Source: Immundisolibacterales bacterium (GTDB taxonomy: Bacteria > Pseudomonadota > Gammaproteobacteria > HK1). From it: a stretch of DNA of 64,000 nt. Positions 1,801 through 61,946 of this stretch are shown piece by piece; position 1 is the first letter of the stretch, and each line of letters begins with the position of its first letter. The notes beneath the pieces were generated by a model, which was given only the letters and a program-made list of their open reading frames with translations, was not told the DNA's origin and did not search any database. The DNA lies in contig JAPOPW010000012.1 in NCBI GenBank assembly GCA_026712715.1, positions 62,001 to 126,000 of the forward strand. Reading direction: 5' to 3'. Position numbers and translations under genes: made by a program.

Positions 1801-1815
1801 CCGCCCCAGTCCGAT

Positions 1816-8989: not shown

Positions 8990-9201
8990 ATAACTCAGAC
9001 CAATTCAATTTATTCGATGAACCCGGTGGTGGTGACCCGGAACCCCGACATATAGTCATCTGCAGTCCACGCACCTCGGGTCTGACGATAGCCGTGCTTG
9101 CATCACGAATACGCGTCAGTTCATGAAACCACGCCTAGCCCGGAAATCTCACCAACTTCCTGCTGCGGACGCCGATCCATGCGCTGGTGGGCACGGCGGC
9201 A

Positions 9202-10479: not shown

Positions 10480-10639
10480 CCCTCGGCGAGCTGCGGCGGG
10501 TAGTCGAGCGAATTCGAAGACGGGATCCGACTTCCGCGAAAGCGCTCGAATTCCGGTCGAGTCGTACCGTCGCCGAAGCCGGCCGTGGCGTACCATGTCG
10601 AGCCGACCGACCTCGGTCGCGCCAGCGGAGGAACCGGCA

Positions 10640-11611: not shown

Positions 11612-11672
11612 ACCTGACGAGCCGCGTCCCGATCGGACCGGGCGGCCGGACGGGGCGCACCGGGTCGGCGCC

Positions 11673-13232
11673 GTGTCGGAGTCGGGTGCGCCTTTCGTGA
11701 ACGAGGCGGCGCGCGAGGTCGTGCTGCGGGTCGCGGGGGGCACCAAGCGTTTCGGCGATCTCGTCGCCAACGACGACATCTCGCTCGAGCTCCGGCGCGG
11801 CGAGGTGCTGGGGCTTCTCGGCGAGAACGGGGCCGGCAAGACCACCTTGATGAGCATCCTGTTCGGTCACTACGTGGCCGACGAGGGCCGGATCGAGGCG
11901 TTCGGCGAGCCCTTGCCCCCAGGCTCGCCGCGGGCCGCCATCGCCGCCGGGATCGGCATGGTCCACCAGCACTTCACCCTCGCGGACAATCTGAGCGTGC
12001 TCGACAACATCGTCCTCGGATCGGAGCCGATGTGGCGGCTTCGCTCGGACCTCCGGGGAGCGGCCAGCCGCCTGCGGGAGCACTCCCGGCGTTTCGGACT
12101 CGATGTCCATCCGGATGCACTGATCGGCGAGCTCTCGGTGGGTGAGCGCCAGCGGGTGGAGATCCTGAAGGCGCTCTACCGCTCGGCCCGCATCCTGATC
12201 CTGGACGAACCCACCGCGGTGCTCACCCTCCAGGAAACCGAGTCCCTGTTCCGTACCCTGGGACAGATGGCCGCGCAGGGACTGTCGATCATCTTCATCA
12301 GCCACAAGCTGGACGAGGTGATTGCCGCCTGCGGTCGGGTGATGGTGTTGCGGGCCGGACGCGTGATCGGCGAGCGGCCGGCCACCGGAACCAATGCGTC
12401 GCGACTGGCCGAAATGATCGTCGGTCACGAAGTCCCGGCGACCCGACGATCGGCCGCGACCCCCGGTGAGCCGGTCTTCGAGCTGCGCGGCGTGAACGCG
12501 GGAACCGGCGGCCGGGACCGGCTCCACGACGTCGACCTCACCGTTCGCGCGCGGGAGATCGTCGGGGTCGCCGGCGTGGCGGGCAACGGACAGGGGTCGC
12601 TGGCCCGGGTGGCGGGCGGCCATGCCGCGCCGACGCGCGGACAGGCGTTGTTGTTCGGCGAAGATGCATCTCGCTCCTCGGCGTCCCGCGACGCGCGTGG
12701 CCGCGTCGCCAGAATCCCCGACGATCGCCACGCGCTCGGCATCGTTTCGGACCTGGCGCTGTGGGAGAACGCCATCCTCGACACGGCCAACCGGCGGCGT
12801 TTCGCCCGGTTCGGCATCATCCGGCGCCGTGAAGCGAAGGCATTCGCCGAGGAGCTGATCGAACGCTTCGACATCCGTTGTCGGGGTCCCGACACGCCCA
12901 CCGGCCTCCTGTCGGGCGGCAACATGCAAAAGCTCATCCTCGGACGTGTCTTCTCCGTTCGTCCACGCTTCATCATCGCCAACCAGCCGACCCGAGGGCT
13001 CGACGTCGGTGCCGCCGCCTACGTTCGCAAGTGTCTGCTCGAGGCGCGCGACGGGGGCGCCGCGGTGCTCGTGATTTCCGAAGACCTGGACGAAACGCTC
13101 TCCATCGCGGACCGGATTGCGGTGGTCCATCGGGGCCGCCTGTCGCCACCGAGGGCGGCCGAGAGCCTGACCAGGCGGGAAATCGGGCTGCTCATGGCGG
13201 GGCAGTGGGACACGGTCCGCGATGCGCGTTGA
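11673..13232 (+). CDS. BMP-type ABC importer ATPase, two nucleotide-binding domains
   Basis: 519 aa with two fused ABC domains, as in the ATPases of guanosine/ribose-type importers. Domain 1 has Walker A GENGAGKTT, signature LSVGERQR and Walker B LILDEPTAVLT. Domain 2 has a degenerate Walker A (GVAGNGQGS) and signature LSGGNMQK. An imperfect second site is normal in this family. The start codon is GTG, 62 nt after the SBP stop, and the end overlaps the permease start by 11 nt. Confidence 0.92.
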   Translation: MSESGAPFVNEAAREVVLRVAGGTKRFGDLVANDDISLELRRGEVLGLLGENGAGKTTLMSILFGHYVADEGRIEAFGEPLPPGSPRAAIAAGIGMVHQHFTLADNLSVLDNIVLGSEPMWRLRSDLRGAASRLREHSRRFGLDVHPDALIGELSVGERQRVEILKALYRSARILILDEPTAVLTLQETESLFRTLGQMAAQGLSIIFISHKLDEVIAACGRVMVLRAGRVIGERPATGTNASRLAEMIVGHEVPATRRSAATPGEPVFELRGVNAGTGGRDRLHDVDLTVRAREIVGVAGVAGNGQGSLARVAGGHAAPTRGQALLFGEDASRSSASRDARGRVARIPDDRHALGIVSDLALWENAILDTANRRRFARFGIIRRREAKAFAEELIERFDIRCRGPDTPTGLLSGGNMQKLILGRVFSVRPRFIIANQPTRGLDVGAAAYVRKCLLEARDGGAAVLVISEDLDETLSIADRIAVVHRGRLSPPRAAESLTRREIGLLMAGQWDTVRDAR

Positions 13233-14268
13233 GCGACGCGAGACCCCCAGCGCCTGGCTCGCGCTCGGTGCGCCATTCGCGGCGATCGCGTTGGCGCTGC
13301 TGGCCTGCACGCCGCTCATCATGTGGCACGGCTCGCCCGTGCTCGAAGCCTACGGATTGTTGCTCAAGGGCACCCTGGGGTCGCGGGGTGCCGCGACCGA
13401 GACCCTGACCCGGGCAACGCCGCTCGTCCTGACCGGGCTCGCGGCGGCGGTGGCGTTTCGCGCGAGGCTCTGGAACATCGGCGCGGAGGGCCAGCTCTAC
13501 CTCGGCGCGGCGGCGGCCGCCGCGGTGGGCGCCGGCGCCATCGCGGCGCCGCCCTGGATCCTGATTCCCCTCGTGCTCACGATCGGCGTTGCCGCCGGCG
13601 CACTGTGGCTGATCGGACCCGCCCTGCTCAAGACCCGCCTCGGCGTCGACGAGGTCGTGACGACCCTGCTGCTCAACTTCGTGATGCTGCTGTTCATCTC
13701 GATGATGATCGAGGGGCCGATGAAGGATCCGCTGGGGTTCGGCTGGCCCCAGTCGGCGCCGGTGCTGGACGAAGCGGCGCTTCCGAAGATCGTTCCGAAG
13801 TCCCGCCTTCACCTGGGATTCGTGATTGCCGTCGTCGCGGCGGTGGTGTTCTGGCTGATCGACACGCGGACGCGTTGGGGATTCGAGGCGCGCGCCGTCG
13901 GCTCCAATCCGGCCGCGGCCCGCTTTGCCGGCATGACCGTTCAGACGGTCATGATCAGGGTCGCGATCCTTTCCGGCGGGCTCGCCGGACTCGCGGGCGC
14001 GTGCGAGGTGACCGGGCTTCGCGGCTACCTCGCGCTCGACCTGTCGCCGGGCTTCGGCTACGCCGGAATCGTGGTCGCCATGCTGGCGCAGCTCCATCCG
14101 CTCGGGGTCATCGGCGCGGCCGTCTTCGTCGCGGGGGTGTTCGTCGGCGCCGACGCGATGGGCCGCACGCTCGGGGTGCCGGGCTTCATTGCCGACGTCA
14201 TCGTCGCCGCATCCCTGATGTGCATGCTGCTCGCCATGTTCGCGGCCCGGTACCGGATCCGGCGATGA
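13222..14268 (+). CDS. BMP-type ABC importer permease 1
   Basis: 348-aa membrane protein of the BPD_transp_2 (YufP/NupP-like) class with many hydrophobic helices. Characteristic segments are FRARLWNIGAEGQLYLG, LGVDEVVTTLLLNFVMLL and AVGSNPAAARFAGM. It overlaps the ATPase gene by 11 nt and the next permease by an ATGA junction, which indicates translational coupling. It forms a heterodimeric channel with permease 2. Confidence 0.93.
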   Translation: MRVERRETPSAWLALGAPFAAIALALLACTPLIMWHGSPVLEAYGLLLKGTLGSRGAATETLTRATPLVLTGLAAAVAFRARLWNIGAEGQLYLGAAAAAAVGAGAIAAPPWILIPLVLTIGVAAGALWLIGPALLKTRLGVDEVVTTLLLNFVMLLFISMMIEGPMKDPLGFGWPQSAPVLDEAALPKIVPKSRLHLGFVIAVVAAVVFWLIDTRTRWGFEARAVGSNPAAARFAGMTVQTVMIRVAILSGGLAGLAGACEVTGLRGYLALDLSPGFGYAGIVVAMLAQLHPLGVIGAAVFVAGVFVGADAMGRTLGVPGFIADVIVAASLMCMLLAMFAARYRIRR

Positions 14269-40075: not shown

Positions 40076-40882
40076 ATGACCAAGCATCCCTTCGCCATGG
40101 TTCCGCTTCCCGCCGAGCGGAGCGTCTCGAAGCCCCGCACCAGGGGCCTCACGATGATGAAGGACTCGGGACTGCCGCGCGACCACATGCGAGGCCTGCT
40201 CGATCTGATTGCGCCCTTCGTGGATTACGCGAAGCTCGTCACCGGCACCGCGCGGCTCTATCCCGAGGACCACCTTCTCGAGAAGCTCGAGATCTACCGC
40301 GAGTTCGACGTCCACACGTTCATCGGTGGCCAGTTCCTCGAGTACGTCTTCGCCACCCGGGGCTTCCCCGGCGTGCGGCCGTACTGCGAAGAGGCCCGCC
40401 GGCTCGGATTCGAGGCCATCGAGGTCTCCGACAACCGCGTTCCCCTGACCGACGAAGAACGGACCCGGCTCATCTCGACGGCGGTCGACTGCGGGCTCGA
40501 AGTCCACGGCGAGGTCGGCTCCAAGGACGTCCATTCCACCGCCGCGACCCTCGTCCGGCAGGCCGAGACCTGCTTCGAGGCCGGCTCGAAGCTGGTCCTG
40601 GTCGAGGGCGCCGAGCTCATCGACGACGACGCGCTCAACGTTCCGCTCCTGGAAGAGCTGAAATCGGGACTCGACGTCGAGAGGGTGATGTTCGAGCTGA
40701 GCGGCCCCTGGATCCCGGGGACGACGATGGCGGAGGTCTACCAGCTCCGGAACTTCCTCATCGGCGCATTCGGCCCCGACGTCAACATCGCCAACGTCAT
40801 GCCGGAGGACGTCTTCGAGACGGAGGTGCTGAGGGTCGGGATGGGGAGCGCCGGGCCGCCCGCCGGCTTCGAACGGCGCTGA
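40076..40882 (+). CDS. ComA-family protein (phosphosulfolactate synthase-like)
   Basis: 268 aa TIM-barrel-type protein with the ComA layout: KPRTRGLTMMKDSG at the N-terminus, PFVDYAKLVTGTARLY around residue 50, FIGGQFLEYVFATRG around 82 and GFEAIEVSDNRVPLT around 115. EVHGEVGSKD follows. ComA adds sulfite to phosphoenolpyruvate in coenzyme M or sulfolactate biosynthesis. Bacterial homologs exist outside methanogens and need not share the reaction. No comB or comC genes adjoin. Clear family match, unclear function. Confidence 0.82.
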   Translation: MTKHPFAMVPLPAERSVSKPRTRGLTMMKDSGLPRDHMRGLLDLIAPFVDYAKLVTGTARLYPEDHLLEKLEIYREFDVHTFIGGQFLEYVFATRGFPGVRPYCEEARRLGFEAIEVSDNRVPLTDEERTRLISTAVDCGLEVHGEVGSKDVHSTAATLVRQAETCFEAGSKLVLVEGAELIDDDALNVPLLEELKSGLDVERVMFELSGPWIPGTTMAEVYQLRNFLIGAFGPDVNIANVMPEDVFETEVLRVGMGSAGPPAGFERR

Positions 40883-43624: not shown

Positions 43625-44383
43625 ATGAGCCGATCGCTGTTTCTCAAGCTGCTTTCGGGGATCATCGTCTTCGGCGCGTGGGAGATCGCCGGGCGCATTC
43701 CGGTGAGCTACGCGTTTCCGACCTTCTTCGAATCCATGGCCGCGCTCGGCGTCATGACCATCGACGGTTCGCTCCTCGAGGCGTACGTGGACACGCTTCG
43801 TCCGCTGGTGATCGGGCTCCTCATCTCGGCCTTCATCGGGATTGCGCTCGGGCTCTGGGTCGGTCTCACCCGCTGGTTCGACTGGCTCGTCTCCCCCATC
43901 TTCATCGTCATGCAGGCGGCGCCCCTTGCGGCGCTCATCCCGCTGCTCGTTATGGTCTACGGGATCGGGCTCACGTCGAAGGTGTTCGTCGTCTGCATCA
44001 TGGCGATGCCGGTCATCGTGCTGAACACGGCCGGCGCGGTCCGCAACACGCCGACGAACCTCAAGGAGATGGGGTACTCCTTTCTCGGCAACGAACGGGA
44101 CATCATCTTGAAGATCGTGGTCCCGGCCGCATCGCCGATCATCTTCTCCGGGCTTCGCCTCGGCACCTCGGCGGGGTTCATCGGTGCGATCCTCTCGGAG
44201 CTCAAGATCACCCCCACCGGAATCGGCGACATCATCACCTACAGCCGCTCGATCGCGGACTACCCGAGCATGTACGCAGCGATCTTCTCCATCATGGTGC
44301 TCGCGGTGCTGTTCCTGAACCTCCTCGAACGAATCGAACGGTACCTCTTCGCGGGAAACGTGCGTGGCTACGCTACCGACTAG
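43625..44383 (+). CDS. SsuC/TauC-type ABC permease 1
   Basis: 252 aa BPD_transp_1 permease with an EAA-type loop (NTPTNLKEMGYSFLGNERD) and helices such as LVIGLLISAFIGIALGLWVGL. It follows the SBP and the hairpin. Its 3' end overlaps the ATPase start by 20 nt. It pairs with the second permease two genes on. Confidence 0.9.
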   Translation: MSRSLFLKLLSGIIVFGAWEIAGRIPVSYAFPTFFESMAALGVMTIDGSLLEAYVDTLRPLVIGLLISAFIGIALGLWVGLTRWFDWLVSPIFIVMQAAPLAALIPLLVMVYGIGLTSKVFVVCIMAMPVIVLNTAGAVRNTPTNLKEMGYSFLGNERDIILKIVVPAASPIIFSGLRLGTSAGFIGAILSELKITPTGIGDIITYSRSIADYPSMYAAIFSIMVLAVLFLNLLERIERYLFAGNVRGYATD

Positions 44384-45173
44384 GGTGCGCGGGGACGCGG
44401 GCGCGGACGCAACCGTCCCGGCCGCGGCGGTCTCGGCCCGCAACGTCTCCAAGAACTACGGCGAGGTCGAGGCGCTTCGGGACCTGTCGCTCGACTTCCC
44501 CCGAGGGCAGCTCACCTCCCTGCTCGGCCCGTCGGGATGCGGCAAGACCACGCTTCTCAAGATCATCGCCGGGCTGCTCGAGCCGACGGCCGGGGAGGTC
44601 GAGGTCAACGGCCGGCCGGTCACCGGGCCGGGGCCGGACCGCTCCTTCGTGTTCCAGGACTTCGCGCTCCTGCCGTGGGCCTCCGTGCTGCGCAACGTCG
44701 CCTTCGGGCTCGAGCTCCGCGGGGTCGCGATGTCGGAACGCGAGGCGATCGCCGAGAAGTACATCCGCAACGTCGGCCTCGCCGGATTCGAGAAGAGCTA
44801 CCCTCACGAGCTTTCCGGCGGCATGCGCCAGAGGGTCGGTCTCGCCCGGGCGCTCGCCGTCGACAGCGAGGTGCTGCTGATGGACGAGCCGTTCTCGGCC
44901 GTCGACGAGCAGACCCGCCGCAAGTTCCAGGAGGACCTGCTCGGCCTCGTCGCGGGAGAGAACAAGACCTTTCTCTTCGTCACCCATTCCATCGAGGAGG
45001 CGGTCTACGTCTCGGACCAGGTCGCCATCCTCCTGCCGCGCCCGAGCCGCGTGTCGGAGGTCATCCGCCCCCGCGGCCTTCGGACCAAGAATGTCGACGA
45101 CATCCGCCGCGATCCGGAGTACCTCGACATCGTGGACCGGATCTGGGCGTCGCTCCGGTCCTACGTGGAGTAG
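44364..45173 (+). CDS. SsuB/TauB-type ABC ATPase
   Basis: 269 aa with Walker A GPSGCGKT, Q-loop FQDFALLPWASVLRN, signature LSGGMRQR and Walker B LLMDEPFSAVD, the SsuB/NrtD pattern. The GTG start lies inside the end of permease 1, a coupled arrangement. The next permease begins 3 nt after the stop. Confidence 0.92.
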   Translation: MATLPTRVRGDAGADATVPAAAVSARNVSKNYGEVEALRDLSLDFPRGQLTSLLGPSGCGKTTLLKIIAGLLEPTAGEVEVNGRPVTGPGPDRSFVFQDFALLPWASVLRNVAFGLELRGVAMSEREAIAEKYIRNVGLAGFEKSYPHELSGGMRQRVGLARALAVDSEVLLMDEPFSAVDEQTRRKFQEDLLGLVAGENKTFLFVTHSIEEAVYVSDQVAILLPRPSRVSEVIRPRGLRTKNVDDIRRDPEYLDIVDRIWASLRSYVE

Positions 45174-45176
45174 GGG

Positions 45177-45929
45177 ATGAGAGTCCTCGGATTCCGGCTT
45201 CCCGGCATGTCGTCCCTGATTCTCTGGGGGCTCGTCTGGGAGGCGGTGGGCCGAAGCGGGCTCACGTTCTTCCTGCCGCCGCTGTCGGAGGTCTTCGCGA
45301 CATTCTTCGCCATCGTCGGCACCGCGCCCTTCCAGAAGGCGCTTTCGGAGACCGCACAGGCGTTTCTCGCCGGTGTGTTCTCCGCCGTCGCGATCGGAAT
45401 CCCGGTCGGGATCCTGATGGGGAAGAACCGGCTCGTCGACGAGCTTCTGCTGCCGTGGGTGAACATCTTCCTGAGCGCCCCCCTGACCGCCCTGGTTCCG
45501 GTCCTGATGGTGCTGTTCGGCTTTGGCCTCAAGTCAATCATCATCACCACCGGGCTGTTCGCGGTGTGGATCATCATCCTCAACGCGCGCGCCGGCGTCA
45601 TGCAGATCAACCGGTCGCTGGTGGAGATGGCGCGCTGCTTCGGCGCGACGCCATGGGCGGCTTTCTCCAAGGTCTACTTCTGGGCGGCGCTGCCGGAGAT
45701 CCTGGGCGGCGTGCGCATCGGCGTGATCCGTGCGGTCAAGGGCGTGATCATCGGCCAGCTCCTCATCTCGATCGTCGGCTTCGGCGCGCTGTTCGAGCTC
45801 TATTCCGCGAACTTCCTGATGAGTCACTTCTGGGCGGTGCTCGTCGTGCTGTTCGCGCTCGCCTTCGCGGTCTCGGAGGCCCTCGCCGCACTCGAGCGCC
45901 GCGTCTCGTTCTACGCCGCCAAGCGGTAG
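45177..45929 (+). CDS. SsuC/TauC-type ABC permease 2
   Basis: 250 aa, same family as permease 1: helices such as FLAGVFSAVAIGIPVGILMG and an EAA loop INRSLVEMARCFGATPWAAF. Two different permeases with one SBP and one ATPase imply a heterodimeric channel, as in some nitrate or thiamine-precursor importers. Last gene of the operon. Confidence 0.9.
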   Translation: MRVLGFRLPGMSSLILWGLVWEAVGRSGLTFFLPPLSEVFATFFAIVGTAPFQKALSETAQAFLAGVFSAVAIGIPVGILMGKNRLVDELLLPWVNIFLSAPLTALVPVLMVLFGFGLKSIIITTGLFAVWIIILNARAGVMQINRSLVEMARCFGATPWAAFSKVYFWAALPEILGGVRIGVIRAVKGVIIGQLLISIVGFGALFELYSANFLMSHFWAVLVVLFALAFAVSEALAALERRVSFYAAKR

Positions 45930-46602: not shown

Positions 46603-48849
46603 TCAGGGGATGAGGTAGATGGGGCTCGGCCAGGCCTGGTGGCCGTTCTCGAGGGTCACGCAGGCGTAGAGGCGGGTGTCCGCGTCGCGGCGGCGCTTGA
46701 CGCGTCGGCTCACGGTCATCGAGCGCGTGGTGTTCACATCCGGAAGCCGGAAGACGCGGACCGCCTTGTAGAGCCCGCCCGCGTCGAGCCGCGTGTCGGC
46801 GAGACCGATGCCGGCGAGCTCGAGGTCCGTGTCGACCTCGCTCGTGCGAAGCCGCAGGACCCCGCCCTCGTTCTCGTCGAGCCACACGTCTATGGCCGAG
46901 AACCCCCCGGTGGTGACGCAGCGCCACGCGACCGCGTCCTCGCCGACCTGCCGGGGAAGCTGCTCGACGTTCCAGAAGTTGACGGGCGCGATGCGCTCGA
47001 CCTTCGCCCCTTCGAAGGTCGCGGTTCCCTCCCAGGAGACGTTCCGGCCCCGGCCGCGATAGTGGGCCCCCTCGCAGACGATGCGGATGCGCCGGCCGAG
47101 GTCGGCCTCCCCGTAGGGGCGCACCGTCTCGAGTCTGTCGAGACCGTCGCGAAGCTCGATCCGCTCGATGGGCGCAGGCGCGGTGACGTCGAGCCGGAGG
47201 GTCAGCTCCTCGTCGCCGGTCCGGACGATGTCCCCCATGATGGCGCGCCGGCAAGGCTCGTGCTCGACATCGCCCAGGTCCGGATTGCGGTGAAAGAGCA
47301 CTCCCGGTGAATCCAGCTCGATTGCGCTCTCGAGAAAGATGCGGGCACCGGTGGTCGCGTAGTGGTGGCGGCGGCGGAAGGCCTCGACGAGGTGGTCCCG
47401 ATCCAGCGACTCGAGGAGGTGGCAGGTGAGCCCGCCGTAGGAGCCGAACTCGGCGACCCCGGGATACTTGGCCCCGGGCCGCCCGTCGTGCCCGTCGCTC
47501 GAGGCGACGATGCCGACCCGGTAGTCCGCCTCGAAGGCGTCGAAGACGATCCACTCGAAGGTCCCCCACGCGGAGTGGATCTCGACCGAGGGCTCGATCT
47601 TCGCGTCGTGGGCGTACTTGACGTCGGCGTAGCGCCCGCCGATGTGGGCGGTGACGAGCGCGTCCTCGTGCTGAAGCGCCGCGAGGAGATCCTTCGCGCT
47701 GTGGCAGTCGGTCTCCGGATGCGTGGTGTCGTACACGAGAGCCCGGCAGGACCGGTAGATGGGCCGGCCCTCGCGCCGGTACCAGACGTTGTGGTCGCCC
47801 CCGAGGGAAGTGTTCCCCGACCACTCGTAGCCGGGGAGGGTCACGAAGCGGCCGGGCTCGTTGAACTCGGCGGTGAGCTCGTTGAGCTCCTTCCAGAACG
47901 CGTCCGTGATCTGGAAGTCGTTGCCCTGGTGGCCGCAGATGTCGAGGAACGCCCGGTCGCGGGCGAACGTGAAGTAGGCGCGGGCGGGGTTGGTTCCCAC
48001 GGTCTCCTCGCTCTGGCCATGCAGATCGCTCCAGTAGTGGCGGTACGGGGAATCGGTCTCGATGCGAAGGGGGTTCGACTCCGCGAGCGGCTCGCCGTCC
48101 TCGCCGAGGACCCGAATGCGGCGCGCTCCCGCGTCGCCAACCGAGAGGCCATCCACTTCCACGCCGAACCGTCCCGCCCGGAAGGTGACGGTCTCGGGGA
48201 GGCCGTCAATCGGCCCGTCGGCGGCGAGGCGAACGGTCCGGGCCACCCGGTCGCTCGGGTTGCCCCACCGGTCCTCGCACTTCAAGCAGAGCCGGAAGCG
48301 ATCCCCGGCCCGGCGAAGGGTCGGAAGGATCGCGACCCAGTTCACCCCCGGTCCCGGTCCGATGGCGATGGTCGGATGGGCGTCGTCGGGAAGGAGGATG
48401 TACTCGTAGCTCGCGAACGGGTCGGCGAGCACGCGGAACTCGAACCGCGGCTGGACGAAGGTCTGGAGCCGCAAGCCCGTCGAGCCCTGCCGGCGGTCGC
48501 CGAAGCGGATGACGATCCGGTCACCCGCGGAGAGATACCGGTCGCAGCGTACGTAGAGCGAGATGCCCCAGGGGCGCGTGTTGCGGCGGTGCTCGCAGCG
48601 CACGGTGAGAGGGATGCCGGTCGAGGTCTCGACGGTGGTGAACCCCGGCCCCGCCGGATCGTCGCACTGGATCATCGACTGGTCGGTCTGCATGCGAAAG
48701 GCGACCTTGAGGCTCCCCCGATCGTCGATGCCGAACTTCCCGCAGGTGTAGGTGAGGGTGAAGCTCTGCCAGCTCCCGGCCTCGAAGCGGCCGGCGGGCT
48801 CGATGGCCGCCGACCCCATGAGGTCGCGGCGGTAGTCGTGATGGGGCAT
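46603..48849 (-). CDS. DUF3604 family protein
   Basis: 748 aa. The diagnostic segment YWSDLHGQSEETVGTN is at about residues 272-287, followed by ICGHQGNDFQ and GGDHNVWYRREG. The HxH-like and Asp-rich layout suggests a PHP-like metallohydrolase fold, but biochemical function is unknown for the family. No signal peptide. The frame extends upstream to 49242 only through the GST gene, so the ATG at 48849 is used. It follows the GST-like gene by 25 nt on the same strand, which suggests a shared pathway with the oxygenase module. Confidence 0.83.
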   Translation of the reverse strand: MPHHDYRRDLMGSAAIEPAGRFEAGSWQSFTLTYTCGKFGIDDRGSLKVAFRMQTDQSMIQCDDPAGPGFTTVETSTGIPLTVRCEHRRNTRPWGISLYVRCDRYLSAGDRIVIRFGDRRQGSTGLRLQTFVQPRFEFRVLADPFASYEYILLPDDAHPTIAIGPGPGVNWVAILPTLRRAGDRFRLCLKCEDRWGNPSDRVARTVRLAADGPIDGLPETVTFRAGRFGVEVDGLSVGDAGARRIRVLGEDGEPLAESNPLRIETDSPYRHYWSDLHGQSEETVGTNPARAYFTFARDRAFLDICGHQGNDFQITDAFWKELNELTAEFNEPGRFVTLPGYEWSGNTSLGGDHNVWYRREGRPIYRSCRALVYDTTHPETDCHSAKDLLAALQHEDALVTAHIGGRYADVKYAHDAKIEPSVEIHSAWGTFEWIVFDAFEADYRVGIVASSDGHDGRPGAKYPGVAEFGSYGGLTCHLLESLDRDHLVEAFRRRHHYATTGARIFLESAIELDSPGVLFHRNPDLGDVEHEPCRRAIMGDIVRTGDEELTLRLDVTAPAPIERIELRDGLDRLETVRPYGEADLGRRIRIVCEGAHYRGRGRNVSWEGTATFEGAKVERIAPVNFWNVEQLPRQVGEDAVAWRCVTTGGFSAIDVWLDENEGGVLRLRTSEVDTDLELAGIGLADTRLDAGGLYKAVRVFRLPDVNTTRSMTVSRRVKRRRDADTRLYACVTLENGHQAWPSPIYLIP

Positions 48850-48874: not shown

Positions 48875-49504
48875 TCAGGCGACGAGGACGCCCGACATCG
48901 GGATGAAGCCCGGGATGCGCTTGACGCGGTCCGTCCAGCGGCGGATGGCGGGGTAGGGCAGGCGCGAGACCCCGCCTTCCTCGGAGAGCGCGACGTAGGG
49001 GAAGCAGGCGAGGTCGGCGATGGTGGGGTGGCCGGGCGCGCAGAGCCACTCCCGCCCTTCCTGCTCCTGGAACCACAGGTGCTCGTCCAGCACCCGGAAG
49101 GGCGCGTTCGCCCCGGCGCGCGCGCGGTCCGCGTCGAGCTCGAAGAAGATCCCGTCGTGAAGCCGCGCGGCGGAGGCGGTCGCGGTGATGCCGTCGGCGA
49201 AGGCGAGCCACTGCGCGATCTCGCCGAGGGTCCTCGGGTCACCGGCGGGATACCACCGGCCTCTCTCGTCGTGCTTCGCGGCGAGGTAGACGAGGATCGC
49301 CTGCGCGTCGCGCAAGCGGAAGTCGCCGTCCTCGAGCACCGGCACCTGGCCGAGGGGGTTCAGGCCAAGGAACCACTCGCTCTTGTGCTCGCGCTTGGGG
49401 TGGAAGTCGATCCAGCGCGTCTCCCACTCGAGACCGAGGAGGCTCAAGAGCAGCCGGATCTTGTAGCAGTTGCCGGAGAGCACGTAGTCGTAGAGACGGA
49501 TCAC
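48875..49504 (-). CDS. Glutathione S-transferase-fold protein, NdmE-like by context
   Basis: 209 aa. The N-terminal thioredoxin-like domain has MIRLYDYVLSGNCYKIRLLLS and the conserved cis-Pro region GQVPVLEDGDFRLRDAQAILVYL; a helical C-terminal domain follows. The start is GTG at 49504 with GAAAGGA upstream. In methylxanthine N7-demethylation a GST-like protein (NdmE) is a structural partner of the oxygenase. Here the gene directly follows a stand-alone Rieske gene and a Rieske-less oxygenase gene, the same grouping. An ordinary detoxification GST is the alternative. Confidence 0.85.
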   Translation of the reverse strand: MIRLYDYVLSGNCYKIRLLLSLLGLEWETRWIDFHPKREHKSEWFLGLNPLGQVPVLEDGDFRLRDAQAILVYLAAKHDERGRWYPAGDPRTLGEIAQWLAFADGITATASAARLHDGIFFELDADRARAGANAPFRVLDEHLWFQEQEGREWLCAPGHPTIADLACFPYVALSEEGGVSRLPYPAIRRWTDRVKRIPGFIPMSGVLVA

Positions 49505-49556
49505 GGCGGTCCTTTCGCGTGGCGGTTGCCGGAAGGCACCTGGTGGTGGAGAGGGA

Positions 49557-50267
49557 TCACGGCGACCCGCTCGCCTCGATCGCGTCGCGCAGCGCACACA
49601 CTCGGCCGTTCTCGCGGCGAAGGACCGCGATTCGTTCGGACGCGGGCGGTGCTTCGGCGAGCGCGGCATGGATGATCGTCTCGTCATCCGCGACCGGCTG
49701 CATTGCGTACAGGATCTCGCCCGCCTCGGCGTGGGCGCTTCGCACGGTGTACGGATCGACGGCTTCCGCCGGCGACCCGTCCGGCGCCTCCCCGGCATGG
49801 CGCGCGAGGGCGTCCGCGACCGCCGCGGCCGGAGCCCAAACGTGGATGCTGCGAAGGGTGAGCCCGGGCGGCGCCGTTCCCCGCCCGAAGCCCGGGGCCG
49901 GGCCATCGCCCGCGCCCTCCCCGGCGAGCCGCACCCAGACGTAGCCATCCGACTCGACGCACCCGAATCGCCGCGCCTTGACGATGCGGGGGGGCGCCTC
50001 GCCCGGGTGGGCCGGCCGCTCGAGGCACTGCCCGGAGCCGGACGCGTACGTCCAGCCGTGGTAGCGGCACTTGAGCCGGTCGCCGAGGTTGGTCCCGACG
50101 GAGAGCCGCACGCCCCGGTGCGGACAGCGATTCTCCCAGGCATTGACGGTGCCGTCGTCCGCGCGCCACACCGCGAGCTCCTGGCCGAGCAGGGCGGTGT
50201 GGACGATGTGGCGGGGGACGGCCTCCTCGCCACGGCACACCGGGAACCAGCGACGCTCCCGACTCAT
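49557..50267 (-). CDS. Stand-alone Rieske [2Fe-2S] protein, NdmD N-terminal-like
   Basis: 236 aa. Residues 5-110 form a Rieske domain with all four cluster ligands: Cys48/His50 in CPHRG and Cys67/His70 in CRYHGW. The lead-in LLGQELAVWR and VNAWENR is very like the extra N-terminal Rieske domain that I recall from NdmD. The rest (about 125 residues) has no recognisable oxygenase or reductase domain. Upstream neighbour is a Rieske-less oxygenase, downstream a GST-like protein. It likely passes electrons to the neighbouring oxygenase; the reductase must be encoded elsewhere. Confidence 0.85.
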   Translation of the reverse strand: MSRERRWFPVCRGEEAVPRHIVHTALLGQELAVWRADDGTVNAWENRCPHRGVRLSVGTNLGDRLKCRYHGWTYASGSGQCLERPAHPGEAPPRIVKARRFGCVESDGYVWVRLAGEGAGDGPAPGFGRGTAPPGLTLRSIHVWAPAAAVADALARHAGEAPDGSPAEAVDPYTVRSAHAEAGEILYAMQPVADDETIIHAALAEAPPASERIAVLRRENGRVCALRDAIEASGSP

Positions 50268-50325
50268 GCCCGGCTCTTCCGGGACGCCACGACCTCGGCC
50301 CGCTCTCGCTCCCGCCCGCGCCCGT

Positions 50326-51186
50326 TCAGGCGGCGGCCGGGATCGCACCGTAGGTCACGCCCTGCGCGGCAAGCCACCGGCGGTAGCTGAGCGACGAAGC
50401 ATCGGAGCGGGCGGGGACCTCCGCCCGGGGGTCGAGGGGCAGGCGCTTCGGAAGCTGGTTCTCGAGGATCGGCTTGTCCTGCGCGAAGATGAGCTGCATG
50501 AACCAGCGGTTGGTCTCGTTGTCGAGGTTGTGGGCGAGGTAGGAGAGGTAGGGGTGCGCGATGCATCGCTCCTCGCTCACCGGCTGCACGAACAGCACGA
50601 TGAAGTCCCATCGTTCGGGCTCGATCGGGTTGCTCTTGTAGAGGCACACCGTGTACGGACGGGCGACCCTGTACTCGTAGTCGACCATCATCCCGCCGTC
50701 GGCGCTCGGCGAGGCGAGGGGCTGGAAGAACCGGCACTTCGTCGCGAGGATTTCGTCCTCTTCGGTCACCGTGACCTCGTACGGCTCGACCTCGGTGTGC
50801 GGCTCGACGCCGAGGTAGTCGGTGTGGACGAACGGGAAGTGCCCCATGTCGAGGAAGTTCTCGACTGCGCGAAGTCCCGAGACGTGGACCGCGATCGAAC
50901 CCCCCGTCACGTGGATCCGATCCGCCTCGTGGCACTCGGGGAAGTGGACGATGTCCCGGTTGGGCTGGCCGATGGAGGTGAAGACGTGGCCGTAGCGGAT
51001 GCGCGCGGGGAGGGGGGCGTGCGTATCGCGCCGGGAGACGCGAACCTCGCCGGAGCCTTCGCCCGACTCGGCGATCTCGATCGGGACGCCGAGCAGCACC
51101 GTCTCGAACGAGCCTCGCGACGCGAGGAAATCGAGCTCGACGACGGCGTGCCAGTCGTTCACCAGGATCGGATCGGGCTCGGCCAT
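50326..51186 (-). CDS. Rieske-type oxygenase catalytic subunit lacking the Rieske cluster (NdmC-like)
   Basis: 286 aa. The C-terminal catalytic half of a Rieske non-haem iron oxygenase is clear: ENFLDMGHFPFVHTDYLG with iron ligands His116 and His121, and Asp237 in FAQDKPILENQ as likely third ligand. The N-terminal half keeps the shape of a Rieske domain (VNDWHAVVELDF, IRYGHVFTSIGQP) but has no CxH...CxxH ligands. Such cluster-less oxygenases rely on a partner Rieske protein, as NdmC does with NdmD. The ATG at 51186 is used; upstream codons to 51267 look non-coding. It is the first gene of the oxygenase block, 409 nt from the divergent BMP importer. Confidence 0.86.
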   Translation of the reverse strand: MAEPDPILVNDWHAVVELDFLASRGSFETVLLGVPIEIAESGEGSGEVRVSRRDTHAPLPARIRYGHVFTSIGQPNRDIVHFPECHEADRIHVTGGSIAVHVSGLRAVENFLDMGHFPFVHTDYLGVEPHTEVEPYEVTVTEEDEILATKCRFFQPLASPSADGGMMVDYEYRVARPYTVCLYKSNPIEPERWDFIVLFVQPVSEERCIAHPYLSYLAHNLDNETNRWFMQLIFAQDKPILENQLPKRLPLDPRAEVPARSDASSLSYRRWLAAQGVTYGAIPAAA

Positions 51187-51595: not shown

Positions 51596-52699
51596 ATGGC
51601 AAGGAACATCTCGCGCCGCGAGGCGCTCAAGTACTCGGCCGCGACCGGAGCGATGGCGACGGGCCTCGCCGGCGTGCCGCGCCTCGTCGCCGCCGCCGAC
51701 CCGCTCAAGGTGGGCATCGTCTACGTCTCGCCGATCTCCGAGATCGGCTGGACCAAGCAGCACAGCCTCGGCGCCGAGGCCATCGCCGACACCTTCGGCG
51801 AGAGGGCGAGCATCACCGCAATCGACAACGTCTGGGACCCGCAGGCGGGCGAGCGCGTGTTCGCCGAGCTCGCGAGCACCGGCCACGGACTCGTCTTCGG
51901 GACCAGCTTCTCCCACAGCACCCCGATCCAGAAGACCGCGCCCCGATTCCCCGACGTCGCGTTCGAGCACTGCTCGGGGCTCAAGCATTCAAGGAACCTC
52001 GGTACCTTCGAGGCGAAGTACTACGAAGGGACCTATCTCGCGGGCATCGCGGGCGGGCACGTGACGGAATCGAAGAAGCTCGGATTCATCGGCGGGTTCC
52101 CGATCCCGGACATCGTGGGCCCCGGGAACGCGATGCTGCTCGGCGCGCAGAGTGTCGACCCCTCGATCACCTGCAGCGTCATCTTCCTCAACTCCTGGTT
52201 CGACCCCGCGAAGGAGAAGGAGGCGACGGCCGCCCTCGTCGCCCAGGGGTGCGACGTCATCTGCTCCATGACCGACACCGCGACCGGGGTGCAGGTGGCC
52301 GAGCAGAACGGAGCGTGGTCGATCGGCTACGCGAGCGACATGCGCCAGTTCGGCCCCACGAAGAACCTCACCTCCTTCATGCTCGACTGGACCAGCGTCT
52401 ACGTCGGCGCGGCGCGCGACGTGCTGGACGGGACGTGGACCTCGAAGGTCCGGTGGCAGGGCGTGAAGGAGGGCGTGGTGACGATGTCCCCCTACAACGA
52501 CCAGCTTCCGGCGGGGGTCATCGACCAGTTGACGGTGGCCGAGGCCGCGATCAAGGACGGGTCGCTCCATCCCTACCGGGGCGAGCTCCGGGACCAGCAG
52601 GGCAACGTCCGCGTCGCGGAAGGGAGCCGGCTCTCCGACCCTGACATCCGGGGCTTCAACTGGTTCGTCGAAGGGATGGTCGGCAACCTCGAGGGCTGA
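51596..52699 (+). CDS. BMP/PnrA-family ABC substrate-binding protein (system 2)
   Basis: 367 aa. The ATG at 51596 has a strong GGGGAG site and gives a Tat-like leader (NISRREALKYSAATG...GLAGVPRL). The mature part shows the BMP pattern: YVSPISEIGWTKQHSLGAEAI, FGTSFSHSTPIQKTAPRFPD, NSWFDPAKEKEATAALVAQG and FMLDWTSVYVGAARDVL. BMP proteins generally bind nucleosides or purine-like ligands. Being divergent from the NdmC/D/E-like block, it may bring in that block's substrate. A strong hairpin follows the stop. Confidence 0.92.
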   Translation: MARNISRREALKYSAATGAMATGLAGVPRLVAAADPLKVGIVYVSPISEIGWTKQHSLGAEAIADTFGERASITAIDNVWDPQAGERVFAELASTGHGLVFGTSFSHSTPIQKTAPRFPDVAFEHCSGLKHSRNLGTFEAKYYEGTYLAGIAGGHVTESKKLGFIGGFPIPDIVGPGNAMLLGAQSVDPSITCSVIFLNSWFDPAKEKEATAALVAQGCDVICSMTDTATGVQVAEQNGAWSIGYASDMRQFGPTKNLTSFMLDWTSVYVGAARDVLDGTWTSKVRWQGVKEGVVTMSPYNDQLPAGVIDQLTVAEAAIKDGSLHPYRGELRDQQGNVRVAEGSRLSDPDIRGFNWFVEGMVGNLEG

Positions 52700-52841: not shown

Positions 52842-54398
52842 ATGACGCCGCGCCTCGAGCTTCGCGGGATCACCAAGACGTTCCCCGGGGTGCTCGCGAA
52901 CGACAACGTCTCGCTTGCGGTGATGCCGGGCGAGATCCACGCCGTTCTCGGCGAGAACGGCGCGGGCAAGAGCACCCTGATGAAGATCATCTACGGGGCG
53001 CTCTCGGCGGACGAGGGCGAGATCCGCTGGAACGGGGAGCTGGTCCGCATTCCGAGTCCGACCGCCGCCCGCCATCTCGGCATCGGCATGGTCTACCAGC
53101 ACTTCTCGCTGTTCGAGACGGTGTCCGTCGCCGAGAACATCGCGGTTGCGGTGGACGAGCCGTTCGACCTTCCCGCGATCTCCGCGCGGGTGCGCGAGCT
53201 CTCCGAGCGCTACGGAATGCCGCTCGACCCGGACCGACTGCTCCACCACCTGTCCGTCGGCGAGCGGCAACGGGTCGAGATCGTGCGCTGCCTCCTGCAG
53301 CGCCCGACCCTCCTCGTCCTCGACGAGCCGACCTCGGTGCTGACCCCCCAGGCGGCCCGAAGCCTCTTCGAGACCCTGCGGGTCATCGCGGCGGAGGGGT
53401 GCAGCCTCCTCTACATCAGCCACAAGCTCGAGGAAATCCGCGAGCTCTGCGACACCGCGACGATTCTCCGGGCGGGGGCCGTCGCCGGCACCGCCGATCC
53501 GAAGACCACGTCGCCGGCGAAGCTCGCCGCGCTGATGGTGGGCTCGGCGCTGCCCGAGACGCACCGCGAGCCGGCCCGGCCCGACCCGACGCCCCGTCTC
53601 GAGGTGAGGGGCCTCGACGCCGCGGCCGAGGACCCGTTCGGCACCGACCTCGAAGACGTCTCGCTCGCGGTTCACGCGGGCGAGATCGTCGGCATCGCGG
53701 GAGTTTCCGGCAACGGACAGGCGGAGCTCGCGGCCCTGCTGAGCGGCGAGCGCACCCTGTCGGCGGACGACGATGCGCTCCGGCTCGACGGCGAGCCCAT
53801 CGGCCGCCTCGACGCGGGGGCGAGGCGGCGGCGCGGGCTCGCCTTCATTCCCGAAGACCGCCTGGGGCGGGGCGTGGTGCCGCTCATGTCGCTGCGCGAG
53901 AACGTCGTCCTGACCGCCCACGCCCGCGGCGGCATGGTGCGCGGCGGCATGGTCCGGCGCGACCGCGCGGACGCCTACGCCCGCCGGGTGATCGATCGCT
54001 TCGACGTGCGGTGCACGGGCACCGGCGCGGTTGCCCGCGCCCTTTCCGGCGGCAACCTCCAGAAGTTCATCGTGGGTCGCGAGATGGAGCTCGCGCCGCG
54101 GGTCCTCGTCGTCTCCCAGCCGACGTGGGGTCTCGACGTCGCGGCCGCCGCCTTCATCCGCCAGAGCCTCATCGACTTGAGCCGCGCGGGGGCCGCGGTC
54201 CTCGTCATCTCCGAGGAGCTCGACGAGCTCCTCGAGATCTGCGACCGCATCGCGGTGCTCTACCGGGGGCGGCTCTCGGAAGGCCGGAACCGCGGCGAGG
54301 TGACCGTCGAGGAGCTCGGCCTGATGATGGCGGGCGGGAGCGCCGCCGCCGGGGCGACGGAACCGGCCGGTCCGGCCGCCGGGCGCACGGGATCATAG
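52842..54398 (+). CDS. BMP-type ABC importer ATPase, two domains (system 2)
   Basis: 518 aa with two ABC domains. Domain 1: Walker A GENGAGKST, signature LSVGERQR and Walker B LVLDEPTSVLT. Domain 2: degenerate Walker A GVSGNGQAE and signature LSGGNLQK. This layout matches the ATPase of the first BMP system at 11.7 kb and is normal for the family. The next permease starts 4 nt after the stop. Confidence 0.93.
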   Translation: MTPRLELRGITKTFPGVLANDNVSLAVMPGEIHAVLGENGAGKSTLMKIIYGALSADEGEIRWNGELVRIPSPTAARHLGIGMVYQHFSLFETVSVAENIAVAVDEPFDLPAISARVRELSERYGMPLDPDRLLHHLSVGERQRVEIVRCLLQRPTLLVLDEPTSVLTPQAARSLFETLRVIAAEGCSLLYISHKLEEIRELCDTATILRAGAVAGTADPKTTSPAKLAALMVGSALPETHREPARPDPTPRLEVRGLDAAAEDPFGTDLEDVSLAVHAGEIVGIAGVSGNGQAELAALLSGERTLSADDDALRLDGEPIGRLDAGARRRRGLAFIPEDRLGRGVVPLMSLRENVVLTAHARGGMVRGGMVRRDRADAYARRVIDRFDVRCTGTGAVARALSGGNLQKFIVGREMELAPRVLVVSQPTWGLDVAAAAFIRQSLIDLSRAGAAVLVISEELDELLEICDRIAVLYRGRLSEGRNRGEVTVEELGLMMAGGSAAAGATEPAGPAAGRTGS

Positions 54399-54402: not shown

Positions 54403-55467
54403 GTGCGACTCCAGTTCGAACCGAGGCCCACGCCCTCGCTCGCGGCCCAGGTGCTCGCCCCGATCGCCGCGTTCGCGCTCACCGTGGTCTTCGGGTCGAT
54501 CTTCTTCCTCGTCCTCGATCTCGACCCCTTCGAGACCCTCCACGTCTTCCTCGTCCGACCCCTGAGCTCCGCGAACGGCGTCTCCGAGTGGCTGCTCAAG
54601 GCGTCTCCCCTCATCCTCATCGGCCTCGGGCTCGCGATCGGCTTCCGGGCCAACGTGTGGAACATCGGCGCGGAGGGGATGTTCATCTGCGGCGCGATCG
54701 CGGCCGGGTGGTTCGCGCTCGCCTTCGGCGACGGCGATCACGCGTGGCTGCTGCCCCTCATGGCGCTTGCCGGCATCGCGGGCGGCATGGCCTGGGCGAG
54801 CGTGCCCGCCTTCCTCAAGGTGCGCTTCGGCACCAACGAGATTCTCGTCACCCTGATGCTGAACTACGTCGCGGTCCTGCTCCTCGGCTACCTCGTGCGC
54901 GGGCCGTGGCGCGACCCCTTCGGCTTCAACTTTCCGCAGACCGCCCTCTTCGGCCCGTCCGCGCTCTTCGATCCGCTGGTCGGCGTCTACCGGGTCAACA
55001 CCTCGATTTTCATCACCCTCGTCGCGGTCGGTATCGCCTGGCTCTTCGTCCAGCACACCTTCACGAGCTACCGGATGACGGTGGGGGGCGCGGCGCCGGC
55101 GGCGGCGCGCTTCGCCGGGTTCCGGGATTCGCACTCGGTGTGGCTCGGTCTCCTCGCCGGGGGCGGCTGCGCGGGTCTCGCGGGGATGATGGAGGTGGCG
55201 GGGCCCCTCGGCCAGCTTACCGGCCACATCTCCCCCGGCTACGGGTTCGCGGCGATCATCGTCGCGTTCATCGGTCGCCTGCACCCGTTCGGGATCGTGC
55301 TCGGAGGGCTCCTCCTCTCTCTCCTGTACATGGGGGGCGAGTCGGCCCAGATCATGCTGCGGCTTCCCGCCGCGCTCACCCGGACGTTCCAGGGGGCGCT
55401 CCTGTTCTTCCTCCTTGCGGCCGACTTCCTCATCTACTACCGGCCGCGCCGGGTCGGGAGGCGCTGA
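54403..55467 (+). CDS. BMP-type ABC importer permease 1 (system 2)
   Basis: 354 aa BPD_transp_2 permease: GFRANVWNIGAEGMFICG, then FGTNEILVTLMLNYVAVLLLG and VGGAAPAAARFAGF. The start is GTG, 4 nt after the ATPase stop. It ends 8 nt before the second permease. Confidence 0.93.
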   Translation: MRLQFEPRPTPSLAAQVLAPIAAFALTVVFGSIFFLVLDLDPFETLHVFLVRPLSSANGVSEWLLKASPLILIGLGLAIGFRANVWNIGAEGMFICGAIAAGWFALAFGDGDHAWLLPLMALAGIAGGMAWASVPAFLKVRFGTNEILVTLMLNYVAVLLLGYLVRGPWRDPFGFNFPQTALFGPSALFDPLVGVYRVNTSIFITLVAVGIAWLFVQHTFTSYRMTVGGAAPAAARFAGFRDSHSVWLGLLAGGGCAGLAGMMEVAGPLGQLTGHISPGYGFAAIIVAFIGRLHPFGIVLGGLLLSLLYMGGESAQIMLRLPAALTRTFQGALLFFLLAADFLIYYRPRRVGRR

Positions 55468-55475
55468 GAGACGAG

Positions 55476-56396
55476 ATGGAAATCGCGATCGCGATCATCA
55501 CCGGAACCGTCGTCGCGGCGACGCCGCTGCTCTTCGCCGCGATGGGGGAGCTCGTCGCGGAGCGCTCGGGGGTGCTCAACCTCGGGGTCGAGGGAATGAT
55601 GCTGATCGGCGCGGTGACCGCCTTTCACGTCGCGTTCGCGGGGTACCCGCTTGCCGTCGCGGCCGGCGCGGGGGTGCTCGCGGGGGCCGCCTCCTCCCTC
55701 GTCTTCGGGGTGCTCGCGCTCAACCTCCTCGCGAACCAGTACGCGGCCGGGATCGCGCTCACCATCCTCGGGGGCGGACTCTCCGCCTTCCTCGGCCGAG
55801 AGTTCGGGGCCGCGCCCATCGATCCCGTCGAGGCGCTCCACATTCCGGTGCTCTCCGACATCCCGGTCGTCGGCCGCATCCTCTTCGACTACGACCCCCT
55901 CGTCTACGTCGCGTTCATCCTATTCGGGCTCATCTGGTGGATGCTCTTTCGCACCAAGGCGGGGCTCGTCCTCAGGATCATCGGGGAGAACCCGCAAGCC
56001 GCGCACGACATCGGGTTCAAGGTGATCCCGATCCGGTACCTCGCGGTCCTCTTCGGGGGCGCGATGGCGGGGCTCGGCGGCGCCTATCTCGCCATCGCCT
56101 ACACCCCCCTCTGGGTCGAGAACATGACCGCGGGCCGCGGGTGGATCGCGCTCGCCCTCGTCGTCTTCGCGAGCTGGCGCCCGCTCCGGGTCCTCCTCGG
56201 GGCGATCCTCTTCGGCGGGGTCAACATCCTGCAGCTCCACGCGCAGGGGCAGGGGATCGGTCCCGCGTCGGAGTTCCTCTCCGCCCTCCCCTACCTCGCG
56301 ACGATCCTCGTCCTCGTCCTCATCTCGCGCAACCGCCAGACCCAGAAGGTGAACTTCCCGGCCTCGCTCGCCAAGCCCTTCCGCCCGGGGCACTGA
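55476..56396 (+). CDS. BMP-type ABC importer permease 2 (system 2)
   Basis: 306 aa BPD_transp_2 permease with GVLNLGVEGMMLIGAV, RIIGENPQAAHDIGFKV and GRGWIALALVVFASWRPLR, the same hallmarks as the second permease of system 1. The ATG at 55476 has AGAGACGAG upstream; longer readings of the frame are shadows of permease 1. Last gene of the importer, convergent with carbonic anhydrase. Confidence 0.93.
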   Translation: MEIAIAIITGTVVAATPLLFAAMGELVAERSGVLNLGVEGMMLIGAVTAFHVAFAGYPLAVAAGAGVLAGAASSLVFGVLALNLLANQYAAGIALTILGGGLSAFLGREFGAAPIDPVEALHIPVLSDIPVVGRILFDYDPLVYVAFILFGLIWWMLFRTKAGLVLRIIGENPQAAHDIGFKVIPIRYLAVLFGGAMAGLGGAYLAIAYTPLWVENMTAGRGWIALALVVFASWRPLRVLLGAILFGGVNILQLHAQGQGIGPASEFLSALPYLATILVLVLISRNRQTQKVNFPASLAKPFRPGH

Positions 56397-60743: not shown

Positions 60744-61946
60744 TCAGCCGCGAACGATGTTGTGCTCCGGCCCGTACGGGAACCCGGTGATGTTCTCGGC
60801 GCCGTCCCCGGTCACCACCAGGATGTCGTGCTCGCGATAGCCGCCCGCGCCGGGCTCGCCTTCGGGGATCATGATCATCGGCTCCATGGACACCACCATG
60901 TTCGGCTCGAGCACCGTGGTCACGTCCTCGCGCAGCTCGAGCCCGCGCTCGCGGCCGTAGTAGTGGCTGAGCACGCCGAAGCTGTGGCCGTAGCCGAAGG
61001 TGCGGTTGGCGAGGAGGCCGTGGCGCGCGTAGATCGCGTTGAGCTCCGCGGCGATGTCGCAGCAGCGCGCCCCCGGTCGGACGAGCGCGATCCCCGCCTC
61101 GTGCACCTCGACGTTGATCTTCCACAGCCGAACGTGCGCCTCCGAGCACTCCTTCGCGAACAGGGTGCGCTCGAGAGCGGTGTAGTACCCGGCCGGCATC
61201 GGGAAGCAGTTGAGGCTGAGGATGTCCCCGCGCTCGATCCGGCGCGAGGTGACGGGGTTGTGGGCCCCGTCGGTGTTGATGCCGGACTGGAACCAGGTCC
61301 AGGTGTCCATCAGCTCGACGTGCGGCTGGCCGCGCCCGAGCTCGCGCACCATGGCCCGCGTCGAGTGCAGCGCCACCTCGTACTCGGGCACCCCGACCGC
61401 GATGGCCTCGACGCCGGCCGCTCCCCCGATGTCGGCGATGCGCGCGCTCTCGCGGATCCAGGCGATCTCCTCGCCGGACTTGACCATGCGCATCCGCATG
61501 GCCGCCTCGCCGACGTCTACGAGCTCCGAAGCGGGCAGCGCATCCCGGAGCTTGCGCAGCGTCCCGACGCTGACGTGGTCGTCCTCGATGCCGACCCGCC
61601 AGCCGTCCCGGACGAGCCGCTTGACGGCCACGAAGAAGTTGTCGCGGTGCCAGTCGGTGTAGACGACGTTGTCGCCGAACGTGCGCCGCCAGGGCTGCCC
61701 GCCGTCGATGTTGGCCGAAATGGTGGTCTGCGCGTCCGGCGTGATCACGAGGCCGTAGGGGCGTCCGAACGAGCAGTACAGGAAGTCGCTGAAGTAGTTG
61801 ATGTTTTGATAGGAGGTGAGGAGGCAGGCGTCGATCTGCCGCTTCGTCATGTGCGCGCGCAGCGCCGCGAGGCGGCGGTGCATCTCTTCGGGGGAGAACG
61901 TCGGTCTTGCCTTCTCGCCGTTTCGTATCGTCTTCAGCCGTTCCAT
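60744..61946 (-). CDS. Creatinase (creatine amidinohydrolase)
   Basis: 400 aa M24-fold hydrolase that splits creatine into sarcosine and urea. The match to characterised Pseudomonas creatinase is close along the whole length: SFGRPYGLVITPD, SANIDGGQPWRRT, MDTWTWFQSGINTDGAHNPVT and TFGYGHSFGVLSHYYGRE. The catalytic-base His is His229 in TDGAHNPV. Length matches the approximately 403-aa enzyme. Aminopeptidase P relatives are excluded by these motifs. Sarcosine oxidase and urease genes are not visible in the window. Confidence 0.93.
   Translation of the reverse strand: MERLKTIRNGEKARPTFSPEEMHRRLAALRAHMTKRQIDACLLTSYQNINYFSDFLYCSFGRPYGLVITPDAQTTISANIDGGQPWRRTFGDNVVYTDWHRDNFFVAVKRLVRDGWRVGIEDDHVSVGTLRKLRDALPASELVDVGEAAMRMRMVKSGEEIAWIRESARIADIGGAAGVEAIAVGVPEYEVALHSTRAMVRELGRGQPHVELMDTWTWFQSGINTDGAHNPVTSRRIERGDILSLNCFPMPAGYYTALERTLFAKECSEAHVRLWKINVEVHEAGIALVRPGARCCDIAAELNAIYARHGLLANRTFGYGHSFGVLSHYYGRERGLELREDVTTVLEPNMVVSMEPMIMIPEGEPGAGGYREHDILVVTGDGAENITGFPYGPEHNIVRG

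Follow-up and report, generated by a model that had tools for sequence, protein, structure and literature searches.

A candidate NdmCDE-type Rieske demethylase with a free Rieske subunit in an Immundisolibacterales genome

Three adjacent genes in the genome of an Immundisolibacterales bacterium encode a Rieske oxygenase subunit that has no Rieske cluster, a small separate protein that has one, and a protein of the glutathione transferase (GST) fold. We asked what enzyme these genes would make, where its electrons might come from, and on what it might act. The genes lie in the window, by which we mean the whole stretch of 64,000 nucleotides that was analysed, in the following setting.

46609..48849, minus strand: DUF3604 (CehA/McbA-like) metallohydrolase, 25 nt downstream of the GST gene
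48875..49504, minus strand: GST-fold protein, NdmE type; 209 aa, GTG at 49504, stop at 48875
49557..50267, minus strand: free Rieske protein, homologue of the N-terminal part of NdmD; 236 aa, ATG at 50267, stop at 49557
50326..51186, minus strand: cluster-less Rieske oxygenase alpha subunit, NdmC family; 286 aa, ATG at 51186, stop at 50326
51596..52699, plus strand: BMP/PnrA-type substrate-binding protein of an ABC transporter, divergent from the trio
52842..54398, plus strand: ABC transporter ATPase of the BMP system
54403..55467, plus strand: ABC transporter permease 1 (BPD_transp_2) of the BMP system
55470..56396, plus strand: probable second BMP permease, from a reading of the sequence and the gene order in loci L019 and L026; its start is approximate, the gene being the latter part of the open reading frame 54588-56396

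The three genes and their NdmCDE relatives

The initial annotation had described three adjacent, co-directional genes, and all three open reading frames were found where it placed them, on the minus strand, with intergenic gaps of 58 nt (oxygenase to Rieske) and 52 nt (Rieske to GST); start sites in the trio were chosen by inspection. By Pfam, the oxygenase has VanA_C and no Rieske domain, the second protein has Rieske and no VanA_C, and the third has GST_N. The trio is neither a chance grouping nor an assembly artefact, since it recurs in another MAG (L019; proteins 85 to 90% identical to those of the window) and is also present in two chromosome-level assemblies (L020 and L026). The DUF3604 hydrolase is probably a member of the same operon; as a functional partner it was rejected, a targeted neighbour search having found it near the trio only in the closest relative. 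In L019, a 90% identical copy lies 3.6 kb from the GST gene rather than adjoining it.

Next, we looked at the oxygenase. The iron ligands assigned to it at the outset (H116, H121 and D237, the mononuclear iron site) were right and proved invariant across 63 aligned relatives, as did D113, the bridging Asp through which enzymes of this class connect to the Rieske centre. The accompanying statement that CxH and CxxH motifs are absent was correct as to the Rieske site, although one CxxH string, C208-I-A-H, does occur; this string belongs to the catalytic domain and lacks a CxH counterpart, and so does not mark a Rieske site. With a VanA_C-type domain and a 2-His-1-Asp site but no Rieske cluster motif, the protein belongs to the NdmC-type cluster-less oxygenases. 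The Rieske cluster-binding segment (about 55 aa) has been deleted and the N-terminal strands on both of its flanks have been kept; the model (pLDDT 91) aligned end to end with SxtT and GxtA, with a Z score of about 31 (30.8 against SxtT).

PDB searches returned no NdmC, no NdmE and no full NdmD, and we therefore sought a reference cluster. A Pseudomonas putida plasmid locus (L098) encodes near-perfect matches to the solved NdmA and NdmB and to the solved ferredoxin domain of NdmD. Its genes for a cluster-less oxygenase, a Rieske-reductase of 588 aa and a GST are flanked by a nucleobase symporter on one side and by formaldehyde genes on the other. This is the ndm cluster, with the authentic Pseudomonas NdmC. 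In the comparison with the Ndm proteins that the initial annotation had proposed, the window oxygenase was 46% identical to NdmC, the Rieske domain was 48% identical to that of NdmD over 117 aa, with the CxH/CxxH motifs of the NdmD type, and the third protein, correctly called GST-fold, was 60% identical to NdmE over 207 aa (273 bits). The best match of the latter among solved GSTs scored 81 bits, and the protein is closer to NdmE than to other GSTs.

We constructed a tree of 51 oxygenases, 45 of them cluster-less and the rest intact. All 45 cluster-less sequences, NdmC included, formed one clade apart from the intact ones (support 96/99; 100 in an earlier tree), so that the window protein, in the same clade, is not far from NdmC. 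Four supported groups could be told apart within it: NdmC with relatives from Klebsiella and Paraburkholderia (97/94); oxygenases partnered with free Rieske proteins (L017, L100 and L123-L125; 100/98); the second oxygenase of rhizobial loci; and the first rhizobial oxygenase together with that of the window (97/98). Since the window oxygenase falls in a subfamily separate from NdmC sensu stricto, at 46% identity, it is a member of the NdmC family and not an NdmC orthologue. The intact oxygenases nearest to the cluster-less clade (L014, L015, L126 and L127) are likewise encoded next to a BMP transporter.

With the oxygenase as the sole query, a search gave 77 loci, and the 64 with at least 4 kb downstream were counted as having room for the partners. 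Relatives of the Rieske protein and the GST adjoin the oxygenase in 63 of these 64. Across the oxygenase-seeded set, the reductase is fused to the Rieske protein in 65 loci, and two oxygenases stand in tandem in 54. An independent sample of 369 genomes of the same class yielded six strong matches, namely, the window's own genome, three new cluster-less loci and two intact oxygenases; all three new cluster-less loci carry both a free Rieske gene and a GST gene. The near-perfect co-occurrence of the trio, together with the single cluster-less clade, supports the initial annotation in its claim of a system related to NdmCDE. Neither of the two outcomes that it had named as fatal, a distant oxygenase clade and a lack of co-occurrence across genomes, was observed. 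The parallel holds, and it is one of homology.

The Rieske protein, its extra domain and its electron donor

The second protein is a free Rieske protein with all four cluster ligands, as had been claimed: C48, H50, C67 and H70 are invariant in an alignment of 52 relatives. The FMN/NADH reductase and plant-type 2Fe-2S domains are absent from the chain, whose reading frame ends at 236 aa, and residues from about 118 to 236 make up an extra domain. The model of the protein (pLDDT 88; structure modelling left out sequences from plasmid records) aligned with whole SxtT/GxtA alpha subunits over 228 of its 236 residues (6-293 of theirs, Z 21.3, rmsd 2.7), which indicates that a catalytic-type helix-grip domain, in shortened form, makes up its C-terminal half. 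Comparing profiles, we matched the central strands of this region to the catalytic domain of the oxygenase (87% probability). An HMM of the extra domain matched the oxygenase catalytic domain and two NdmD proteins, and it matched the CBB5-type NdmD weakly (E = 0.059). Reading the extra domain for iron ligands, we found no D-x-x-H-x4-H and no third ligand.

In the published account of NdmCDE, the Rieske domain was "split off" (PMC4408171). In the models, by contrast, the oxygenase and the Rieske protein resemble two copies of a single alpha subunit that have degenerated reciprocally, rather than the products of a simple domain split-off. Duplication of one alpha subunit with reciprocal loss would be the simplest reading of these models and of a weak sequence signal. 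If it is true, two half-active alpha-like chains would be needed for one working electron-transfer border, and the N-terminal region of NdmD would be a degenerate oxygenase subunit rather than a domain cut from NdmC.

The domain architectures of the Rieske chains vary. In the NdmD type, the Rieske and extra domains are followed by FNR and Fer2 domains, and the first two stand alone in the window, L019, L013, L020, L026, L074, L075, L079, L086 and L100, the free protein of L100 being accompanied by a separate VanB-type reductase. A protein of Paraburkholderia tropica (L088, 8893-10074; 394 aa) combines Rieske, extra and plant-type Fer2 domains and has no flavin domain, and in L120 a free Rieske protein lies near a free Fer2 protein that is 57% identical to the ferredoxin domain of a rhizobial NdmD-like protein. 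In the Rieske tree, the fused or free state needs three changes; the window protein belongs to a clade of five genomes (100/99) in which the Rieske protein is free and all ligands are conserved, and several early branches, some of them long, are free as well. The 351-aa Rieske proteins of L020 (8932-9984) and L026 (8931-9983) were considered as less-reduced intermediates and rejected, their extra length being a Gly/Ala/Asn-rich low-complexity insert between the two domains.

A dedicated reductase was found nowhere in the 64-kb window. The window genome encodes a single FNR-type (PF00175) reductase, on another contig, with its Fer2 domain first, unlike NdmD. Fer2 matches elsewhere were rejected as donors, as they look like molybdenum-hydroxylase subunits or a cyclase-linked ferredoxin. 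The many oxygenases of this genome may share one donor or use another class of reductase. Its assembly, 98% complete, contains 16 Rieske-domain matches against the one FNR-type reductase.

Gene neighbours, proposed reaction and rival readings

To narrow down the substrate, we counted neighbouring genes by targeted searches around the loci. A BMP transporter is present in 66 of 77, and the window's substrate-binding protein is 67% identical to the one beside rhizobial ndmCDE-like clusters; the best NCBIfam matches of the window system, all below cut-off, fall in a putative family of B6 transporters. FrmA (S-(hydroxymethyl)glutathione dehydrogenase) lies downstream of the GST gene in 30/77 loci and FghA (S-formylglutathione hydrolase) nearby in 12/77, both above NCBIfam cut-offs; many of these loci are from related rhizobia, the Roseobacteraceae and Pseudomonas cases being separate. 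Guanine deaminase is encoded near five loci (L022, L035, L074, L083 and L095; TIGR02967 above cut-off for L022 and L074). Of these, L074 is a free-Rieske locus in which XdhA, XdhB and XdhC accompany the guanine deaminase, and a xanthine/uracil-type permease lies near L079. The window trio itself has neither FrmA nor guanine deaminase next to it; elsewhere in the same genome, guanine deaminase and xanthine dehydrogenase are encoded 8 kb apart on one contig and FrmA on another. The BMP transporter, the FrmA and FghA genes and the guanine deaminase and XdhABC genes together point to demethylation with release of formaldehyde and with guanine or xanthine as the product. From these neighbours we infer that the substrate is an N-methylated purine, perhaps a methylguanine or a methylxanthine. 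Where the initial annotation had named an N- or O-dealkylase, the neighbours thus favour the first of the two, as N-demethylation of a purine.

In Rieske oxygenases, electrons are handed on between subunits: they leave the Rieske centre of one and reach the iron of the next via a bridging Asp. A review gives this distance, for NdmA and NdmB, as 12.1 Å between subunits against 44.7 Å within one, and it reports NdmCDE as a 360-kDa complex with three copies each of C, D and E (PMC10380055). Our preferred reading, to which we give a probability of roughly 60%, is that the window trio is a heteromeric Rieske demethylase of the NdmCDE type, with the free Rieske subunit in the role of NdmD and an N-methylpurine as substrate. 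The oxygenase would contribute the iron site and bridging Asp that it keeps without the cluster-binding segment, and the Rieske protein would contribute its cluster site, its catalytic domain being apparently shrunken and devoid of iron ligands. The two would form an assembly of the alpha3-alpha'3 type with the NdmE-like GST as scaffold; with oxygenase and Rieske chains facing each other and braced by the GST, the need for transfer between subunits would be satisfied by complementary halves. Electrons from an unlinked reductase or ferredoxin would pass from the Rieske centre of one chain through D113, across the subunit border, to the iron of the oxygenase. The adjacent BMP transporter would bring in the N-methylpurine, the methyl group would be released as formaldehyde, and the product would go on to guanine deaminase and xanthine dehydrogenase. 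A broader version, which we hold tentatively, as possible rather than probable, is that the whole NdmCDE family arose by alpha-subunit duplication and reciprocal cofactor loss, and that the window form is ancestral-like, lacks the fused reductase, shares an unlinked one, and removes the methyl group from a methylguanine-type base that stems from the turnover of RNA or DNA.

The same split enzyme could instead act on something other than a purine, as an O- or N-dealkylase or a hydroxylase of another small heterocycle imported by the BMP system. BMP-type transporters carry other substrates too, and here the closest NCBIfam family is the putative B6 one; the probable operon includes the DUF3604 hydrolase; and SxtT and GxtA, the closest intact relatives of known structure, are alkaloid hydroxylases. 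We nevertheless think this unlikely, given that relatives adjoin guanine deaminase, XdhABC and FrmA/FghA genes, that L079 lies near its nucleobase-type permease, and that the characterised NdmC is a purine demethylase. Clade and three-protein make-up would also suit a plain NdmC orthologue, that is, a 7-methylxanthine N7-demethylase for caffeine-type compounds, but the subfamily of the window oxygenase (97/98) is separate from the NdmC subclade (97/94), the relatives sit with guanine deaminase and not with NdmA/NdmB, and the window holds no caffeine cluster, which makes it rather improbable.

A decayed, non-functional ndmCDE-like operon that has lost its reductase might be suspected from the Rieske-fused reductase of most relatives (65 loci) and from the window genome, with no obvious replacement reductase nearby. 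Such decay is scarcely credible, however, when the free form keeps all ligands in five related genomes (100/99) and occurs in several other lineages, and when it stands beside a VanB-type reductase in L100 and a free Fer2 ferredoxin in L120. As for the GST-fold protein, the well-conserved GST N-domain and the use of glutathione in formaldehyde handling by FrmA would fit an ordinary catalytic glutathione transferase acting on the product. We consider this quite improbable, because the protein is so similar to NdmE, for which a structural, non-catalytic role has been reported (PMC4408171, PMC10380055), and adjoins the oxygenase in 63/64 loci.

Relation to known systems

The window trio resembles NdmCDE of P. 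putida CBB5 in its cluster-less oxygenase, separate Rieske chain, NdmE-type GST and gene order, the three genes being adjacent and co-directional in the window as well. It differs in that its Rieske protein is free, without the FMN/NADH and plant-type ferredoxin domains; in having a single oxygenase, of a different subfamily, and no NdmA/NdmB nearby; and in having a BMP transporter where NdmCDE has a nucleobase symporter. NdmA and NdmB, the N1- and N3-demethylases of methylxanthines, are also Rieske oxygenases that demethylate purines at nitrogen, and their catalytic domain is similar, but they are intact, with a Rieske centre of their own, and only 20 to 28% identical to the window oxygenase. 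SxtT and GxtA, although the best solved structural match for both window subunits, are likewise intact, a single alpha-subunit chain carrying the two metal centres together.

The ndmCDE-like clusters of Mesorhizobium and Sinorhizobium contain the closest oxygenases outside the window's own bacterial family (60 to 65%) and the same divergent BMP transporter (67%). In these clusters, unlike the window, the NdmD-like protein is a fused reductase of 588 aa; there are usually two oxygenase genes, together with a GntR regulator, and often FrmA/FghA or guanine deaminase genes alongside. The Paracoccus alcaliphilus plasmid locus L100 and the gammaproteobacterial loci L017/L120 and L123-L125 share with the window the free Rieske protein, the cluster-less oxygenase and the GST, and L100 and L120 share its BMP transporter as well; however, their gene order is Rieske-oxygenase-GST, their oxygenases form a separate subfamily (100/98), and L100 has its own separate VanB-type reductase and an annotated 8-oxoguanine deaminase. 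The L120 locus (G013, 553-9219) holds a complete unfused set: besides a GST, a cluster-less oxygenase and a free Rieske protein, the set comprises a BMP transporter, a free Fer2 ferredoxin and an intact NdmA/B-like oxygenase.

The initial annotation had called the gene arrangement new. This stands for the reductase-less Rieske partner but not for the cluster type as a whole, since ndmCDE-like clusters in Mesorhizobium and Sinorhizobium were noted earlier, with function unknown (PMC4408171). The open-access literature that we searched yielded no account of an NdmCDE variant whose Rieske protein is free, of NdmD having a catalytic-type domain, or of a Rieske enzyme from bacteria that demethylates 7-methylguanine, nor any mention of guanine deaminase in association with NdmCDE-like loci. 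Relative to the literature found, what is new is the Rieske chain without a fused reductase, which occurs in several other lineages too, and the nature of its extra domain. A natural pair of chains of which one carries the Rieske centre alone and the other the iron alone would isolate the electron step between subunits, in a form testable with single-centre mutants. Moreover, such loci are widespread beside genes for guanine deaminase, xanthine dehydrogenase and formaldehyde detoxification, which suggests that bacteria commonly have an undescribed route for N-methylpurines; if this is true, caffeine N7-demethylation would be one specialised case of it.

Three other features of the window were observed. 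A creatinase-like M24 metallopeptidase (Creatinase_N and Peptidase_M24; 60744-61946, minus strand) is encoded near the demethylase region. A second ABC transporter resembling the BMP type lies at 10595-14268 on the plus strand, its BMP-like protein 28% and its ATPase 42% identical to the rhizobial one. A phosphosulfolactate synthase-like gene (40076-40882, plus strand; TIGR03849, 150 bits, below cut-off) lies upstream of ABC transporter genes at 43625-45929.
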